Below, one piece after another: positions 30,123-47,122 of a DNA stretch of 64,000 nucleotides. Both the position numbers and the translations under genes were made by a program. The stretch spans positions 1 to 64,000 of the forward strand of contig JBBJNV010000004.1 of assembly GCA_037721215.1 (NCBI GenBank), in the 5' to 3' direction. Below the pieces are notes generated by a model. The model was not told the origin of the DNA. It made no database searches and saw only the letters and a program-made list of their open reading frames with translations. The DNA comes from Gemmatimonadaceae bacterium (GTDB lineage Bacteria; Gemmatimonadota; Gemmatimonadetes; Gemmatimonadales; Gemmatimonadaceae). Positions within the stretch are counted from its first letter, which is position 1. The number at the start of each line of letters is the position of its first letter.

Positions 30123-32138
30123 ATGCGATCAGCTTCGTACCTGTCCTGCGCATTGCTGGTCATGCTGGGTGGATTTAGCCAAGCCTCCGCGCAAACCGCA
30201 CCGTCCTCCTGGTCGCCGGCTCTGCAGGTCAGAACCCGCCTCGTAGCCACGCCGCGGCTTTCGCCCGACGGCAAGCGGGTAGTCTATACAATCAACGATG
30301 CTGTGATGACCGCCGACAAGAGCGAGTTCGTCACGCAGATCTGGCTCGCGTCCAGCGATGGCAGCACCAATTATCAGGTGACCTTTGGCGAGAAATCGTC
30401 AACGAATCCGAAATGGTCACCCGACGGCGGGTCGATTGCCTTCACATCGAATCGAAAAGACAACAGAAACAACCTCTATGTTCTGCGCGTAAATGGCGGT
30501 GAAGCCGAGCCGTTGACCGAGGTGAAATCTTCTGTCGGCGATTTCGAGTGGTCGCCCGACGGCCGCTGGATCGCATTTGCATCAACCGATGCAAAGACCG
30601 ACGATGAAGAAAAGGACGACAAGGGCAGGAATGACTTTCGCTGGGTCGACGAAAATACAAAGGTCGCAAGACTGTATGTCATCCCGATTGCGAAAGACGC
30701 CAGCGGCAAGCGGGAAGGGCGGAAACTCACAGCGGAAAATCGTCACGTAGACGACCTGAGCTGGTCGCCTGATGGAAGAAACATCGTCTTCAGCCATGTG
30801 AAATCGCCGGTCGCCAACGATTGGACTTCGTCGGATATCTCGATCGTCGAGGTCGCGAGCGGGCGCGTCCGGCCATTCGCGTCGAGCGCGGCGGCCGAAG
30901 GCACACCCTCCTACTCACCGGATGGAAAGTGGATTGCCGCAGCTGTCAGCGATCTTCCGGTGCGCTGGGCACAGAGCGATCAAATCAACATTTATCCGGT
31001 TGGCGGCGGAGCACCGCGCGTTGCACCGATGTCGCACGATGGACAGCCAGGGATTGCCGGCTGGTCGGCCGATGGCTCGAAGATTTATTTCGTCGAGGCG
31101 AAAGGCACCGCGACGTCCCTTTACGCGCTGAACGTCGCCGCAAAGACCATTACCGAAATACAGAAAACGGACGGCGTGATCGCGGGAATCGGCCTCGACC
31201 AGAAAACTTCGACCTTCAGCTTCGTGATGCAGAAACCCGACCGCCCGCCCGAGGTTTTCGTCGCTCGCCTGCACGGCGGAAGTCCGACACAAGTCTCGAA
31301 AGCCAATACAGACCGCACGATGGCTGTCGGCAGAACCGAAGTTGTCCGGTGGACGAGCACCGACGGCAAGCAGATCGAAGGGTTGCTCACCTACCCCGCC
31401 GGCTACCGATCAGGGAGCCGAGTTCCCCTCATTCTGAACGTTCATGGCGGGCCTGCCGGTGTTTTTCAGCAGAGCTACGTCGGTGGGCGAGGTTCATATC
31501 CCCTTGCTACGCTTGCCTCCCGCGGGTTTGCGATTCTGAGGCCAAATCCGCGCGGCTCGAGCGGCTACGGAACAGAGTTTCGCCGGGCGAATGTCAACGA
31601 CTGGGGTTTCGGGGATTATGCCGATCTGATGACCGGGGTCGATAAGGTGATCGCGATGGGCGTAGCCGATCCCGAGCGACTGGGCGTTATGGGATGGAGC
31701 TACGGCGGTTACATGACGTCGACCATCATCACGAAGACTAAGCGTTTCAAAGCCGCTTCAGCCGGCGCGCCGGTAACCAACCTTATGAGCTTCAACGGAA
31801 CAGCTGACATTCCCTCATTCATCCCCGATTATTTTGGCGGCGAGTTCTGGGACAATCCGGATGCCTACCGCAAACATTCGGCGATGTTCAACATCAAGGG
31901 TGTCACTACACCGACCCTCATTCAGCATGGGGACGCAGACGTTCGCGTTCCGATCTCTCAGGGTTACGAACTGTACAATGCGCTGAGATCCCAGGGCGTT
32001 CCAACGCGGATGATCGTCTTTCCGCGGCAACCCCATGGCCTCAACGAACCCAGGATGCAAATCGCTGCGATGCAGAGCAATCTCGACTGGTTCGAGAAAT
32101 ATCTCGGGAACAATCGGACGGCCTCGAGCAGGGAATGA
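30123..32138 (+). CDS. Secreted S9-family prolyl oligopeptidase / acyl-peptide hydrolase
   Basis: A 671-residue serine peptidase. The ATG at 30123 follows AAGGAG at good spacing and opens a signal peptide ending in SQASA. A WD40/TolB-like beta-propeller occupies about residues 35-390 (repeats such as NPKWSPDGGSIAFTSN, DFEWSPDGRWIAF). The alpha/beta hydrolase domain follows, with Ser526 in GWSYGGYM, an aspartate in HGDADVRVP and a histidine in PHGL. The lid-like propeller restricts substrates to short peptides. Confidence 0.92.
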   Translation: MRSASYLSCALLVMLGGFSQASAQTAPSSWSPALQVRTRLVATPRLSPDGKRVVYTINDAVMTADKSEFVTQIWLASSDGSTNYQVTFGEKSSTNPKWSPDGGSIAFTSNRKDNRNNLYVLRVNGGEAEPLTEVKSSVGDFEWSPDGRWIAFASTDAKTDDEEKDDKGRNDFRWVDENTKVARLYVIPIAKDASGKREGRKLTAENRHVDDLSWSPDGRNIVFSHVKSPVANDWTSSDISIVEVASGRVRPFASSAAAEGTPSYSPDGKWIAAAVSDLPVRWAQSDQINIYPVGGGAPRVAPMSHDGQPGIAGWSADGSKIYFVEAKGTATSLYALNVAAKTITEIQKTDGVIAGIGLDQKTSTFSFVMQKPDRPPEVFVARLHGGSPTQVSKANTDRTMAVGRTEVVRWTSTDGKQIEGLLTYPAGYRSGSRVPLILNVHGGPAGVFQQSYVGGRGSYPLATLASRGFAILRPNPRGSSGYGTEFRRANVNDWGFGDYADLMTGVDKVIAMGVADPERLGVMGWSYGGYMTSTIITKTKRFKAASAGAPVTNLMSFNGTADIPSFIPDYFGGEFWDNPDAYRKHSAMFNIKGVTTPTLIQHGDADVRVPISQGYELYNALRSQGVPTRMIVFPRQPHGLNEPRMQIAAMQSNLDWFEKYLGNNRTASSRE

Positions 32139-43192: not shown

Positions 43193-43993
43193 ATGAAAAT
43201 ACAATCGACTACCATGGGAAAATCGCATATGTCGAATCGGGCAAAGGCAGCCGTATCGGGATGTCTCGCCATTTTCCTGTCTGCCTGCGGAACTACGACG
43301 GCACCGGATGCCCTTGTACCGTCGGGCCCGCAGGGGCGGGTGCGACTGGTCAACGTCATTACGGATGCAACGCGGGGCCGCGTCAACGCCTCGCTCGAGG
43401 GGCTCGTATTCGGAGTCGATATCAACTATGCGGTAAGTGCGCCCGCAAATCTGGGGGCGCCGGCCACCGCTCCGTACGCCGCAGTGCTGGCGGGGAATCG
43501 CGCCTTTGTTCTCAAGCGCACGGCCGACACCACCGTAACCGTGGCGACGCTGAGCTTCGCTGTAGCGGATGGCCAGGATGTCACCGTTTATGCAATTGGA
43601 GGGGTGGGCGGAAGCGCGATCACATCGGTCGTGACAACAGACATCAACACAGCGGCGGCATCTACCGAGACCCGGATTCGTCTCGTCAACATGAGTCCAA
43701 CCGCCGGCGCTGTAGACGTGTTCTTCACTGCTGTGGGTGCCGATCTGGCGACGGCTACGCCGCGTGCGACTGCACTGGCCTATAGAGGCCAGTCCGCCTA
43801 TTTCACCGTGGCGCCAGGGACTTATCAATACCGCGCCGTTCCCGCCGGCACCGCACCAGCAAACCGCGCCGCGGCCGTTCTGATCACGTTGTCGCCTGTC
43901 ACGGTTGCGGGCGGGACAGGGCGAACGATTGTCGCGGCGGACAACAACGTCGGCGGGGCTCCGCTCCGGGCTTTCGTCCTAACTGATCGTTAG
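43193..43993 (+). CDS. DUF4397-domain lipoprotein
   Basis: A 266-residue lipoprotein (lipobox LSAC at about residue 32 from ATG 43193; later ATGs at 43214 and 43229 also fit). Two DUF4397 beta-sandwich halves begin GRVRLVNVITDA and TRIRLVNMSPTAGAVDVFF, followed by FTVAPGTYQYR and GGTGRTIVAAD. The function is unknown; DUF4397 proteins are often cell-surface and accompany SusCD pairs. It starts 3 bp after susD. Confidence 0.85.
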   Translation: MKIQSTTMGKSHMSNRAKAAVSGCLAIFLSACGTTTAPDALVPSGPQGRVRLVNVITDATRGRVNASLEGLVFGVDINYAVSAPANLGAPATAPYAAVLAGNRAFVLKRTADTTVTVATLSFAVADGQDVTVYAIGGVGGSAITSVVTTDINTAAASTETRIRLVNMSPTAGAVDVFFTAVGADLATATPRATALAYRGQSAYFTVAPGTYQYRAVPAGTAPANRAAAVLITLSPVTVAGGTGRTIVAADNNVGGAPLRAFVLTDR

Positions 43994-44061
43994 GCTTCAC
44001 CGAACCAATCCTCGTAGCCGGTTCCTTTCTCTTGTCCCACGTGACGCCTCCGATCACGCCG

Positions 44062-44395
44062 ATGTCCGACACCTCCGCACTGACCCGGGAGGACCTTGCC
44101 GCGGTAACCGCGACGTATCGAAACGAAACCCGAAAGTTCGATCGGTGGGGGGGCAGCGCTATTCGTTGGTGGCCTTTCGGTTGGCTTACTCCTAATGCTC
44201 GCTGGTGATCGTTTTAGGTGGAGCGACGGGTGGGATCCTGTCTTTCTTGCGTTGGGATGGGGCTTGGCCTTAGGTGGCATGTCGATACCTTGGTGGCGCC
44301 GCCAGCGTGCAATGGAAGGCCTCAAGGTCGAATGTGCCTCGTGCTCGATGCCTAAACACACGCTGATGCTAACGAGCGATCGGGATAGGCAGTAG
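44062..44395 (+). pseudogene. Membrane-protein gene broken at a G7 run and overrun by an intron end
   Basis: From ATG 44062 the frame reads sensibly for 30 codons (MSDTSALTREDLAAVTATY...RKFDRW), then meets seven Gs at 44147-44153 and soon stops. Shifting frame at that run joins it to a second frame with two membrane helices (ALFVGGLSVGLLLMLAG, PVFLALGWGLALGGMS) and a CASC motif, ending at 44395. One extra G explains it. The last codons (44382-44395) lie in the domain 6 sequence of the group II intron remnant, so the natural C-terminus is also lost. Either a true pseudogene, a phase-variable run, or a sequencing error. Confidence 0.6.
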
Positions 44396-44458
44396 GAGAG
44401 AATCCTCTCCTACTGCCCTCCCACACCACCGGACATGCAGGTCCGCATCCGGCGGGTC
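44380..44458 (-). mobile_element. Group II intron 3' remnant (domains 5 and 6)
   Basis: On the minus strand, arms CCGCCGGA (44448-44455) and TCCGGTGG (44426-44433) form an 8-bp helix with one G-U pair. The 14 nt between them give a 4-bp upper helix, a tetraloop and a 2-nt bulge, the geometry of intron domain 5 with a CGC-type triad. Domain 6 follows: GGGA...TCCC closing (44382-44385 with 44419-44422) around a 13-bp stem, with an unpaired A beside TATCCC as possible branch point. No reverse transcriptase or upstream domains are found, so this is a solo 3' fragment of a bacterial class C-like intron. Confidence 0.62.
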
Positions 44459-44544
44459 GGCTGACTTATGGTCTTGTGTCACCTATCCCGTCTCGTCGAC
44501 AATCACCATGCCTTCAGTGGCGTCGAATCTGAGGGGGAGGTCCA

Positions 44545-44868
44545 GTGAAGATCATCAATACGTTCTCGCGCGACGAGCGCATCGCTGCGTTCCAGAGGGT
44601 GCTCCTTCCCGATGACACCGAGGAGCAGGCAGATATCATGAGCGCACCCATTGACGAGGTCGACGAAAACGGCGTTCCGTGGTTTCCGCCAAGTTACGTC
44701 GGTGATCCACGGGTGTACTCGGCAGCGTTTCTCGACCTTGTCTCGCTCGTGTCCGACGAGACTGCCGCAAAGGTTTGGGCGTCGATGAAGCTCTCGCCGA
44801 CTGAAGGGCAGGAACGCCGCGCACGGTTTCAGGACACCTTGAATCGCGACGAGCCGCCTTCCGTGTGA
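44545..44868 (+). CDS. Small protein of unknown function
   Basis: A 107-residue acidic protein beginning at GTG 44545 with a strong ribosome site (GGGGGAGGTCCA). It is predicted helical with no signal or membrane span; the stretch VPWFPPSYVGDPRVY is rich in proline and aromatics. No family recognised. It lies in the scarred accessory region between the intron remnant and the dehydrogenase fragment, so it may be a recent arrival. Confidence 0.55.
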   Translation: MKIINTFSRDERIAAFQRVLLPDDTEEQADIMSAPIDEVDENGVPWFPPSYVGDPRVYSAAFLDLVSLVSDETAAKVWASMKLSPTEGQERRARFQDTLNRDEPPSV

Positions 44869-45186
44869 AGCACCTGGCGGAGAGTTGCCCGCAAGAGCGT
44901 GTCGCTCCTACTGCGTCGGTCTGTACAGTGGCTCGCTATACCTCGAAACGGAATAACGCTGAACGGAAAGACTGGAAACTCATTACACGCCACTGGAATG
45001 GTTTGCTCTACGATTGAGCGGACCTTCCCGCGATGAGCTGGGTCGATCTTCTATTAGCCGTCATATCACGTGCGTTGGAGCAGACGGAGCGTCATGCACG
45101 CCACGAGTTGAAGCGCAGATCGGTAGGTGGCGGGATATCGCATTTCGTCATAATGAAGTGGCCTTACTCTCAGATGGTGCCCGCCT
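44869..45186. other. 318-bp stretch without a recognisable gene
   Basis: No convincing gene, RNA or terminator. Short open frames exist on the plus strand (for example one from 45014), but none shows a family motif or ribosome site. The stretch separates the small unknown gene from the dehydrogenase fragment and is probably debris from the same rearrangements. Confidence 0.5.
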
Positions 45187-45480
45187 CAGGGGACGAACGA
45201 CTACAGGAAGGTGATGCAGTCGTACGTGGACAGCCATCCGCCGGAGGAGTTCACGAAGGTGAGGGACGGCGGGAACTACGGCTGGCCGTTCTGCAATCCG
45301 AACCCGGACAGTCCTTCGGGAATGAACGGGATGCCGTTTGACCGGGATGTGGAGCAGAACGCGGACGGGTCGCGTCTGGACTGCGCGACGGCGGACCGGA
45401 TATCGAAGGGGATCCAGGCGCACTCGGCGCCCCTGGGAGTGACGTTTCTTCAGGGTACGAACGCGCCTTTCCCCAGTGGG
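45187..45480 (+). pseudogene. Internal fragment of a PQQ-type glucose/sorbosone dehydrogenase
   Basis: The plus frame at 45187-45480 reads YRKVMQSYVDSHPPEEF, RDGGNYGWPFCNP, MPFDRDV, RLDCATADRI and GIQAHSAPLGVTFLQGT, a run typical of the soluble glucose/L-sorbosone dehydrogenase beta-propeller. The N-terminal domain with its signal and the C-terminal third are absent, and no proper start codon precedes it. The match stops near 45480, where the sequence becomes the antisense of the ABC1 kinase gene. About 98 codons remain of an enzyme that normally exceeds 400. Confidence 0.72.
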
Positions 45481-46279
45481 GATCCGCATGCAGCGCCTGC
45501 ATTTCCATCAGCTGAAAATAGAACAGCTCGAACAGGCGCTCGCCAACCAGATTTCTCAACCGCTGCGACGGACGCTTCGCCAGAAACGAATCGAGATACT
45601 CGCCGCGTACCACAGACATCGTCAGCACCTTGTCTGTCGAGAGTTTCGCATGGACGTACGGCACATCGACGTAAGGCAGGCGCGCGAGATGCCTCCGAAA
45701 GAAGGCCACGTTCTCTGCCTCCCGTTCATAGTCGCACTCGGCGATGATCTGCGCCCGTAGCTCGTCAACAGCACTCTCCGGCAGGTATTGCGACAACTGC
45801 GCGGGCTTCGACACGGCCCGAAACCACTTGAAGTCGTTCTCGATTGCGTCGCGGATACCCGGATACTGAATCTTGACCGCCACCTGCTCGCCATTTTTCA
45901 GCGTCGCGTAGTGCACCTGCCCCAGAGAAGCCGCGGCAAACGGTTCTGGCGTGAACGTTTTATAGCTTTCCTCCGGGTCCCGGCCGACGCTGCTTCTGAA
46001 CTGCGCGCGCACCAGCGACGGGTGCATTCCGGGAGCCTGCATCTGCAGCTTCGACAGCTCGGCCAGGGTTTCCGCGTGAAGCAGATCGGTGTGCAGGCTC
46101 AAGGTCTGACCGAGTTTCATCGCCGGACCCCGGAGCGCCATGAGATCCTCGCTGACTCGTCTCGCCGCCTTCGTGTGGGTGGCTTTCAGCTTCCTGCCGC
46201 GTTTCTCCTCGGAGAGAAACGCACTCTGCGCGAGATACCCGAGATAGCTGCCTGTGACGCCGGCGCTCATCGCTGCCAT
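45480..46279 (-). pseudogene. Truncated ABC1/UbiB-family atypical kinase
   Basis: About 265 codons match the N-terminal part of ABC1/UbiB kinases: SAGVTGSYLGYLAQ, the KxGQ motif (MKLGQTLS), the A-rich loop (AAASLGQVHYA), the ATP-site lysine (VAVKIQYPG) and ALHADPH. At the point where DPHPGN and the metal-binding aspartate should follow, the sequence switches to the antisense of the dehydrogenase fragment (DPHWGKARS...), and the open frame runs on to 45251 as noise. Catalytic residues are lost, so it should be inactive. The gene begins 37 bp after the TetR stop. Confidence 0.75.
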
Positions 46280-46315
46280 TCGAAGTGCCCCTGCGGGCGG
46301 GTCCGTCGCTGACGC

Positions 46316-47122
46316 TCATACAATCGTCCCCTTGCGAAGCACGCTGACTCCGAGGCGCAAAGAGCGCTCGAGAAAGGCCAGAGTGTTCTGCTTCGACGCA
46401 GACGAATCGTGCAGCCAGTACAGCAGCACACCCACGTAGTAGATCCAGAACGCATGCGGCGCGACCCAGGTCATGGAGCTGATGCTTCTGTTCGGCAGTG
46501 ATTCCTCGATCAATTCCTCAACGAATGCCATGTACCGGGTTCGAAGGGCCATTGCCTGGAGACTGAATCCGAGCCTTGACGAAGGACGGAGTGCCTGTAC
46601 GAAAGCCGCCCCGATGAAATTTTCGTACGGGGTGAGATACTCGATCTGACTCTGGATGAGGGCGAACAGCTTTTCTTCGAGAGGTGCCTTGCGGAGCGAC
46701 TTTCTGGCCCGGACAGCAGCAATTGCGTGATCTACCTCGAGCTCGAAGAAATGAAGTGCAATATCCTCCTTCGTTGCGAAGTAATTGAATACCGTGCCTT
46801 CCGCGATTTTCGCCCGGCGCGCTATCTGCCGGGTCGTTGCGGCTTCAAATCCCCGCGTCTCGAACAGGTGCAGGGCTGCAGCAACAATCCGCTGTCGCGT
46901 TGCTTCCCTGTTCGTTTCTCTCCGTCCCGGCGAGACTTTCTTGGTTCCGAGCGCAGGTTTTTTCGTTCCGAACGCAGCTTTTTTTGCCCGAGGCGCGACT
47001 TTTCTCCGTCCGGCTGCAGCCTTTTTCCCTTTGGGCGCGACCTTTTTCGTTGAACGCGCAGGGCGTCCGCGAGCAACAGATGTGTTTCGGGTTCCGGGGG
47101 CTGAGTTTTCAGGCATCGGCAT
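46316..47122 (-). CDS. TetR-family regulator with long basic N-terminal tail
   Basis: A 268-residue protein. Residues 1-75 are a low-complexity, Lys/Ala/Gly/Arg-rich tail with KK-A-x-G repeats (KKVAPKGKKAAAG, KKAAFGTKKPALGTKK), histone-H1-like. The TetR DNA-binding domain follows (QRIVAAALHLFETRGFEAATTRQIARRAKIAEGTVFNYFATKEDI), then an all-helical ligand domain of about 130 residues. Its own promoter lies in a large palindrome 17 bp upstream, so it probably represses itself. The truncated ABC1 gene follows on the same strand and may once have been its target. Confidence 0.87.
   Translation of the reverse strand: MPMPENSAPGTRNTSVARGRPARSTKKVAPKGKKAAAGRRKVAPRAKKAAFGTKKPALGTKKVSPGRRETNREATRQRIVAAALHLFETRGFEAATTRQIARRAKIAEGTVFNYFATKEDIALHFFELEVDHAIAAVRARKSLRKAPLEEKLFALIQSQIEYLTPYENFIGAAFVQALRPSSRLGFSLQAMALRTRYMAFVEELIEESLPNRSISSMTWVAPHAFWIYYVGVLLYWLHDSSASKQNTLAFLERSLRLGVSVLRKGTIV

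Follow-up and report, generated by a model that had tools for sequence, protein, structure and literature searches.

What a pair of very stable hairpins is doing antisense to the tail of a small gene, and how it came to lie there, is the question raised by the first 64,000 nucleotides of contig JBBJNV010000004.1 from a Gemmatimonadaceae bacterium (the window). An initial annotation had read the minus strand as a domain 5 (D5) followed by a domain 6 (D6) with a bulged A, that is, as the solo 3' end of a group II intron, and the window does hold a group II intron D5-D6 there, although one base away from the proposed 44380-44458 at either end (Table 1). In a whole-window Rfam scan the covariance model RF00029 is matched in full (positions 1-77) by 44457..44379 of the minus strand, with 40.6 bits and an E value of 1.6e-4, a thin margin over the gathering score of 40, and nothing else in the 64 kb reaches an Rfam gathering threshold. 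The predicted RNA fold of 44370-44470 has an energy of -53.4 kcal/mol (z -5.7), reached by none of 200 shuffles. In an alignment of nine sequences (A2), which includes the window copy, nine of 30 pairs have changed on both sides, a count equalled by 0 of 500 shuffles, and one measure, the count of additional pair types, does not exceed shuffles (184 of 500). Because A2 and the search model R1 both contain the window copy, its R1 score of 89.1 bits is not independent. The unpaired A of D6 is the eighth base from the intron 3' end as read from the sequence, and the terminus, ..CCCGAT, is an AY 3' end. The D5 triad at 44454-44452 is C-G-C in the window and in its relatives and A-G-C in the Rfam consensus; either AGC or CGC is accepted in the available part of one source (PMC4424553).

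Table 1. Features at the remnant and in its surroundings, and intron copies of the survey that lack a 5' end.
Feature	Position or copies	Strand	Basis and remarks
Possible R'-type core GTTAGGC, cassette left edge	43989..43995	+	Read from sequence; a 7-mer is weak evidence
Probable cassette ORF, small membrane-type protein	44064..44395	+	Three-frame translation; frame-shifted
attC 5' half (R''-L'')	44350..44381	+	Model R2, alignment with the G018 site, shuffles
Group II intron 3' end (D5+D6), probably class IIC	44379..44457	-	RF00029, blastn, covariation; intron 3' end at 44379
Domain 6 stem	44382..44422	-	Fold, pair counts; unpaired A (branch-point position) at 44386
Domain 5	44426..44457	-	RF00029 alignment, read from sequence; A-U bulge 44436-44435
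Copies lacking the 5' end, part 1	window, G013_C33, G013_C22, G015_C58, G015_C102, G015_C2, G029_C95		
Copies lacking the 5' end, part 2	G070_C33, G096_C331, G266_C400, G051_C87, G051_C10, G254_C270		

Searched with RF00029, 61 genomes (60 relatives and the genome of the window) yielded 13 matches, which are spread over 10 genomes and include that of the window, and it is these relatives that tell what kind of intron the remnant came from. Three of them (L016-L018) are complete introns of 1,885-1,897 nt with a 3' end of the window type, to which the window stretch is identical by blastn at 93% over 87 nt, 92% over 84 nt and 85% over 81 nt, respectively, the first being the 3' end of a complete intron that bears a reverse transcriptase (RT); their 5' ends read GTGTGCCCAGCATG or GTATGCCCAGCATG. 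Compared with PDB sequences, the RT of another intron of the same type (L077) finds its best match in the GsI-IIC RT (442 bits, residues 73-481), ahead of 7uim, an intron RT/maturase (309 bits), 6me0 (126 bits) and LtrA (117 bits), 7uim belonging to a IIC intron and 6me0 to a IIB intron. A CGC triad is, in addition, a mark of class IIC. The class C assignment of the initial annotation thus appears sound by way of the relatives' RT, the window itself having no intron-encoded protein (IEP).

These results also bear on an alternative, that the hairpins are a transcription terminator or some other host RNA structure unrelated to introns. A very stable stem after a gene is what such a reading would expect. 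However, terminator calling marks nothing at the remnant on the plus or the minus strand; its one call in 43900-45100 lies at 44225, against an average of 1.0 in shuffles. RT-bearing introns end in this very sequence, of which no second copy was found in the genome, and we give the reading next to no credence. A GC-rich stem with a T-run, the form of an intrinsic terminator, was not found, and that candidate is refuted by the identity with complete introns.

Nothing of the rest of the intron accompanies the remnant, as the initial annotation had also said. The intron 5'-domain profile has no match at E 0.01 within 2.4 kb upstream (its best match in the window, with E 0.035, is at 30318), and the GUGYG 5' end and domains 1-4 of complete copies of the same type were not found for the window copy, which is for that reason a fragment and not an intron. 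Over the 3.5 Mb of the window's genome this is the only RF00029 match, the RVT_1 profile PF00078 and the 405-nt intron 5' end both have no match, and a DNA search returned, besides the stretch itself, a 30-nt inverted match of its own D6 hairpin. A 29-nt D5/D6 stretch had no exact match in a scan of genome contigs, and a distant blastn search of plasmids gave no more than a 44-nt stretch of D5 in each of two Streptomyces records. Since no domain 1 and no RT were found in the genome, the remnant should be unable to move or splice alone; nothing points to a present function, and it is a dead fragment.

The surroundings of the intact relatives and those of the window copy differ. In all 12 intact copies tested, the 50 nt before the intron form a hairpin that is matched by no more than one of 200 dinucleotide shuffles (16 were tried, and the four in which the pattern for finding the 5' end failed were dropped). 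Class IIC introns are described as inserting behind hairpins (PMC4028801, PMC4424553, as far as the available parts of both go), and the hairpins before all 12 intact copies fit the terminator target of that class. By contrast, no hairpin above shuffles precedes the solo copies in the window, G013_C33 and G015_C58 (75, 130 and 175 of 200 shuffles are as good). With terminator-targeting introns such as GsI-IIC and B.h.I1 the window's family shares the relationship of the relatives' IEP, the hairpin before intact relatives and CGC as the triad, and the window copy differs from them in being a remnant and in its place, which is half of an attC site. Its neighbour is not the terminator hairpin that the initial annotation had suggested.

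A model fit, an alignment and shuffles show that the intron's 3' terminus lies directly against one half of an integron attC site. In a DNA search of genomes of the genus with 43900-45000, 33 bases were found at 91% identity in genome G018, ending at the intron junction, and there they open an attC-type palindrome (GCCTAAC ... GTTATAT) whose arms are complementary and which scores 13.5; three shuffles of the locus gave nothing of at least 9.5. The window half agrees with the G018 site in 27 of 29 aligned columns, with one gap and one mismatch. Relatives of the G018 site occur in 11 of 19 genomes of the genus (blastn, E of at most 0.05, some matches short or weak), and 15 of them, the query included, were made into the covariance model R2. 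In 1,382 bases of the window searched, 44352-44381 fits R2 positions 1-30 with 20.3 bits and an E value of 3e-5, a match cut at the searched end. When the 45-nt 3' flanks of 40 of 43 intron copies (three being too short, absent or N) were scored against 31 attC sites, the window ranked first with 24, a score reached by 0 of 320 shuffled flanks, followed by G013_C33 with 20 (0 of 320) and by G020_C68 with 17 (0 of 320, a gapped alignment and borderline), while the remaining flanks scored at most 14, within the null (G013_C22 had 13, with 42 of 320). The shuffles used for the G018 palindrome, for its alignment with the window and for the 3' flanks preserve base composition only. R2 detects no attC half at G013_C33 or G013_C22.

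Within the attC the remnant lies opposite to the cassette ORF. The last bases of the attC half, GATC (44378-44381), overlap the intron 3' end, and a second half beyond the remnant was not found in 44455-47000 with R2 or pairwise alignment, so that only one half is present and the insertion can be seen from one side alone. None of the intact copies has a clear attC flank (G020_C68 is borderline), and G013_C33, the other solo copy with an attC-like 3' flank, lies on the top strand of attC and not on the bottom strand.

The gene antisense to the remnant, a "broken membrane gene" in the initial annotation, is probably the cassette ORF that precedes the attC half. Its start is in one frame and its main part, 44195-44395, in another; the tail runs through the attC half and then 17 nt into the remnant. 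The antisense arrangement was thus described correctly, but the remnant sits in the attC that follows the ORF, and a replacement of the gene's 3' end is not supported. No Pfam match was found for 44195-44395, and none of 52 pattern matches in genome contigs was confirmed as a homologue. On the left, GTTAGGC overlaps the stop codon of a DUF4397 gene, which is present in seven other genomes of the genus, and its TTAGGC complements the GCCTAA of R'' at 44350. Blastn similarity to the closest relative, G012, ends at 43992; over 1.5 kb beyond that point G012 shows no similarity except a few short tblastx pieces, and no empty or complete site was found at this locus in relatives, among which the G012 flank was the one inspected closely. 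On the other side of the remnant, window 44946-44995 is a 50-bp repeat with copies, 79-84% identical, on two further contigs of the same genome (C10, C27) and at three places in G018, the other copies being partly self-complementary by eye. Farther along, 45175-45490 holds a broken sugar-dehydrogenase-like piece (by eye, about 45175-45460) and 45251-46279 an ABC1 kinase ORF that matches profile positions 1-197 of 244, a decayed stretch beside the cassette.

Gemmatimonadota are among the phyla listed with integrons in the available part of one source (PMC8618304), and it is to this phylum that a tblastn search points, with Gemmatirosa plasmids at the top of 169 records (29.8% identity). An integron integrase over the curated cut-off is found in four of 19 genomes of the genus, and of eight regions searched that hold integrase genes or pieces, five have R2 matches of at least 80 bits (L059, L060, L061, L063 and L066, of which L063 and L066 include sites used to train the model), with nothing above 17 bits in L058, L062 and L064; it is from their palindromic form and their place beside integrase genes that we take these sites as attC. 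The window's genome has no integrase over the cut-off: its five matches reach at most 92 bits, the best of them reading as XerC/D-type and another being a 72-bit piece with a stop. It does have nine R2 matches, two of them training sites, with eight on contig C12 and one on C2. The eight (C12:26000-38000) fall within 7.8 kb and, in a genome whose integrase matches all stay below the cut-off, form a CALIN-like array. Class C introns and attC clusters thus occur together in one genus.

A class C intron 3' end that lies in an attC and faces the other way from the cassette gene is shared with the IIC-attC introns (S.ma.I2 and relatives; UHB.F1), which, in the available part of PMC7923331, lie "directly after or into" the stem-loop of the attC bottom strand, opposite to cassettes, most of them at a TTGT/T site. 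The window copy differs from these in consisting of D5-D6 only, with no piece of the IEP, in the missing other half of attC and in having complete relatives which, where tested, sit behind terminator-type hairpins. Its 3' exon starts with CGCT and its 5' exon is lost; the exon not being TTGT/T, we do not file the copy in the IIC-attC lineage. Introns truncated at the 5' end have been described in cassette arrays, UHB.F1 among them, and H.ha.F1 and H.ha.F2, in a CALIN, are likewise 5'-truncated and keep DV and DVI, in a genome that has an attC cluster and lacks intI, but belong to group IIB and retain part of the IEP ORF; for these two the authors considered incomplete reverse transcription (all in the available part of PMC7923331). 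Since most bacterial group II copies are truncated according to the parts available of PMC4028801 and PMC4424553, a stub such as that of the window is expected. A literature search, mostly limited to papers outside subscription, found no report of this intron family in papers on Gemmatimonads or on integrons, attC or class C introns. The stub is ordinary in kind, and the new details are its attC context and its host group.

How intron copies are shortened can be judged from a survey of 288 genomes of the order with R1, which gave 43 matches in 25 genomes. The genomes are drafts and copies were classed with up to 2.4 kb of upstream DNA, which left 11 copies limited by contig edges and 32 that are not. 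Among these 32, nine have an RT and the 5' domain (G072_C38 with the RT in pieces), three belong to a different subtype with an RT and no 5'-profile match, seven are internally deleted, with both ends kept and the RT mostly or wholly lost, and 13 lack the intron 5' end (Table 1). Leaving out the divergent G015_C2, G266_C400 and G051_C87 (the last with only 940 nt of upstream DNA), break points were placed by eye in 10 copies: eight lie no more than about 50 nt from D5, and the other two are farther upstream, in the RT tail (G096_C331) and in domain 1 (G013_C22). A search for the 405-nt 5' end in the same 25 genomes found 24 places, two of which, outside contig edges, have no 3' end (G275:C224 and G051:C41, where R1 gives no better than E 0.83). 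Complete, ORF-less, internally deleted and 5'-truncated copies form a small natural series on the decay of bacterial retrointrons, and the relatives of the remnant show where class C introns land and how they get shortened.

We estimate a probability of about three in four that the window copy is the dead 3' remnant of an endonuclease-less IIC intron, left by an insertion into attC that was abortive or was later deleted. This reading starts from the observed D5-D6 anatomy, the class C relationship of the relatives' RT, the intron 3' end abutting the attC half and the antisense position to the preceding ORF, and explains an otherwise puzzling antisense hairpin: two mobile systems met here, one a class C intron and the other an integron cassette. 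An intron ribonucleoprotein would have reverse-spliced into the bottom strand of attC, whose folded stem-loop could have taken the place of the terminator hairpin normally targeted by these introns, and reverse transcription would have begun from the 3' exon. Loss of the intron's 5' part, together with the 5' half of its target, would have followed, either because cDNA synthesis ended shortly after D5 and the cDNA end was attached to DNA lying past the target, or by a later deletion across the 5' junction. Abortive reverse transcription and later deletion both fit the 5' loss, and the data do not decide between them.

Taken by itself, the second route supposes that a full-length IIC intron stood in attC and that one later deletion took away D1-D4 together with the IEP and the far half of attC, with no abortive reverse transcription, and to this we would give somewhat less than an even chance. 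It would account for a 5' flank with neither an attC half nor a hairpin above shuffles, it agrees with the scrappy state of the DNA on that side (the sugar-dehydrogenase-like piece and the partial ABC1 kinase match), and deletions do occur in the family, as the seven internally deleted copies and the two non-edge 5' ends without a 3' end attest. Against it, the survey copies keep the 3' end and break at varying points, mostly no more than about 50 nt from D5, and 5' ends alone were met just twice outside contig edges, an excess of 3'-only over 5'-only fragments that is soft because the searches for the two ends differ in sensitivity.

If abortive reverse transcription were instead a habit of these introns, solo D5-D6 inserts would be a recurrent product of IIC retrotransposition, in which the RT tends to stop soon after D5 and new DNA is attached to the short cDNA. 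We regard this generalization as improbable; were it true, inserts of about 80-125 bp would interrupt integron attC sites and could remove cassettes from circulation. Slightly less probable still is a minimal element mobilised in trans, with introns elsewhere copying and inserting D5-D6 alone, either as a non-autonomous retroelement or as a strong-stop product. Several solo copies do break near D5, and relatives hold ORF-less introns behind terminator-type hairpins. Yet the break points differ among copies, solo inserts were not seen in identical multi-copy sets, the window's genome has one copy and no RT, and domain 1 is needed for group II intron target recognition. The dead remnant of an insertion into attC remains our preferred reading.

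Some further copies deserve mention in their own right. An ORF-less IIC type of 641-653 nt (L023:77-737 in G006:C305, L141 in G275:C48, L145 in G234:C129 and L066 in G013:C22) can be aligned end to end between genomes of two families (76% over 665 nt, 72% over 670 nt), with three copies behind terminator-type hairpins and G013:C22 being a 5'-cut copy (85% over 415 nt), and looks like a non-autonomous lineage moved in trans. A mini-intron of 215 nt (L144, G275:C40) consists of a hairpin, the first ~85 nt, an RT-tail-like piece (by eye) and D5-D6. Four near-identical intron 3' ends in G130 (L093, L095, L097 and L099) lie exactly at contig ends, so that this draft probably hides several longer introns. 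Finally, in genomes of two families D5-D6-like structures follow a similar coding tail, ..WM.AHGYA stop (by eye), with no group II RT within 2.4 kb (L135 in G015:C2 and L150 in G266:C400), and are perhaps another type of element.
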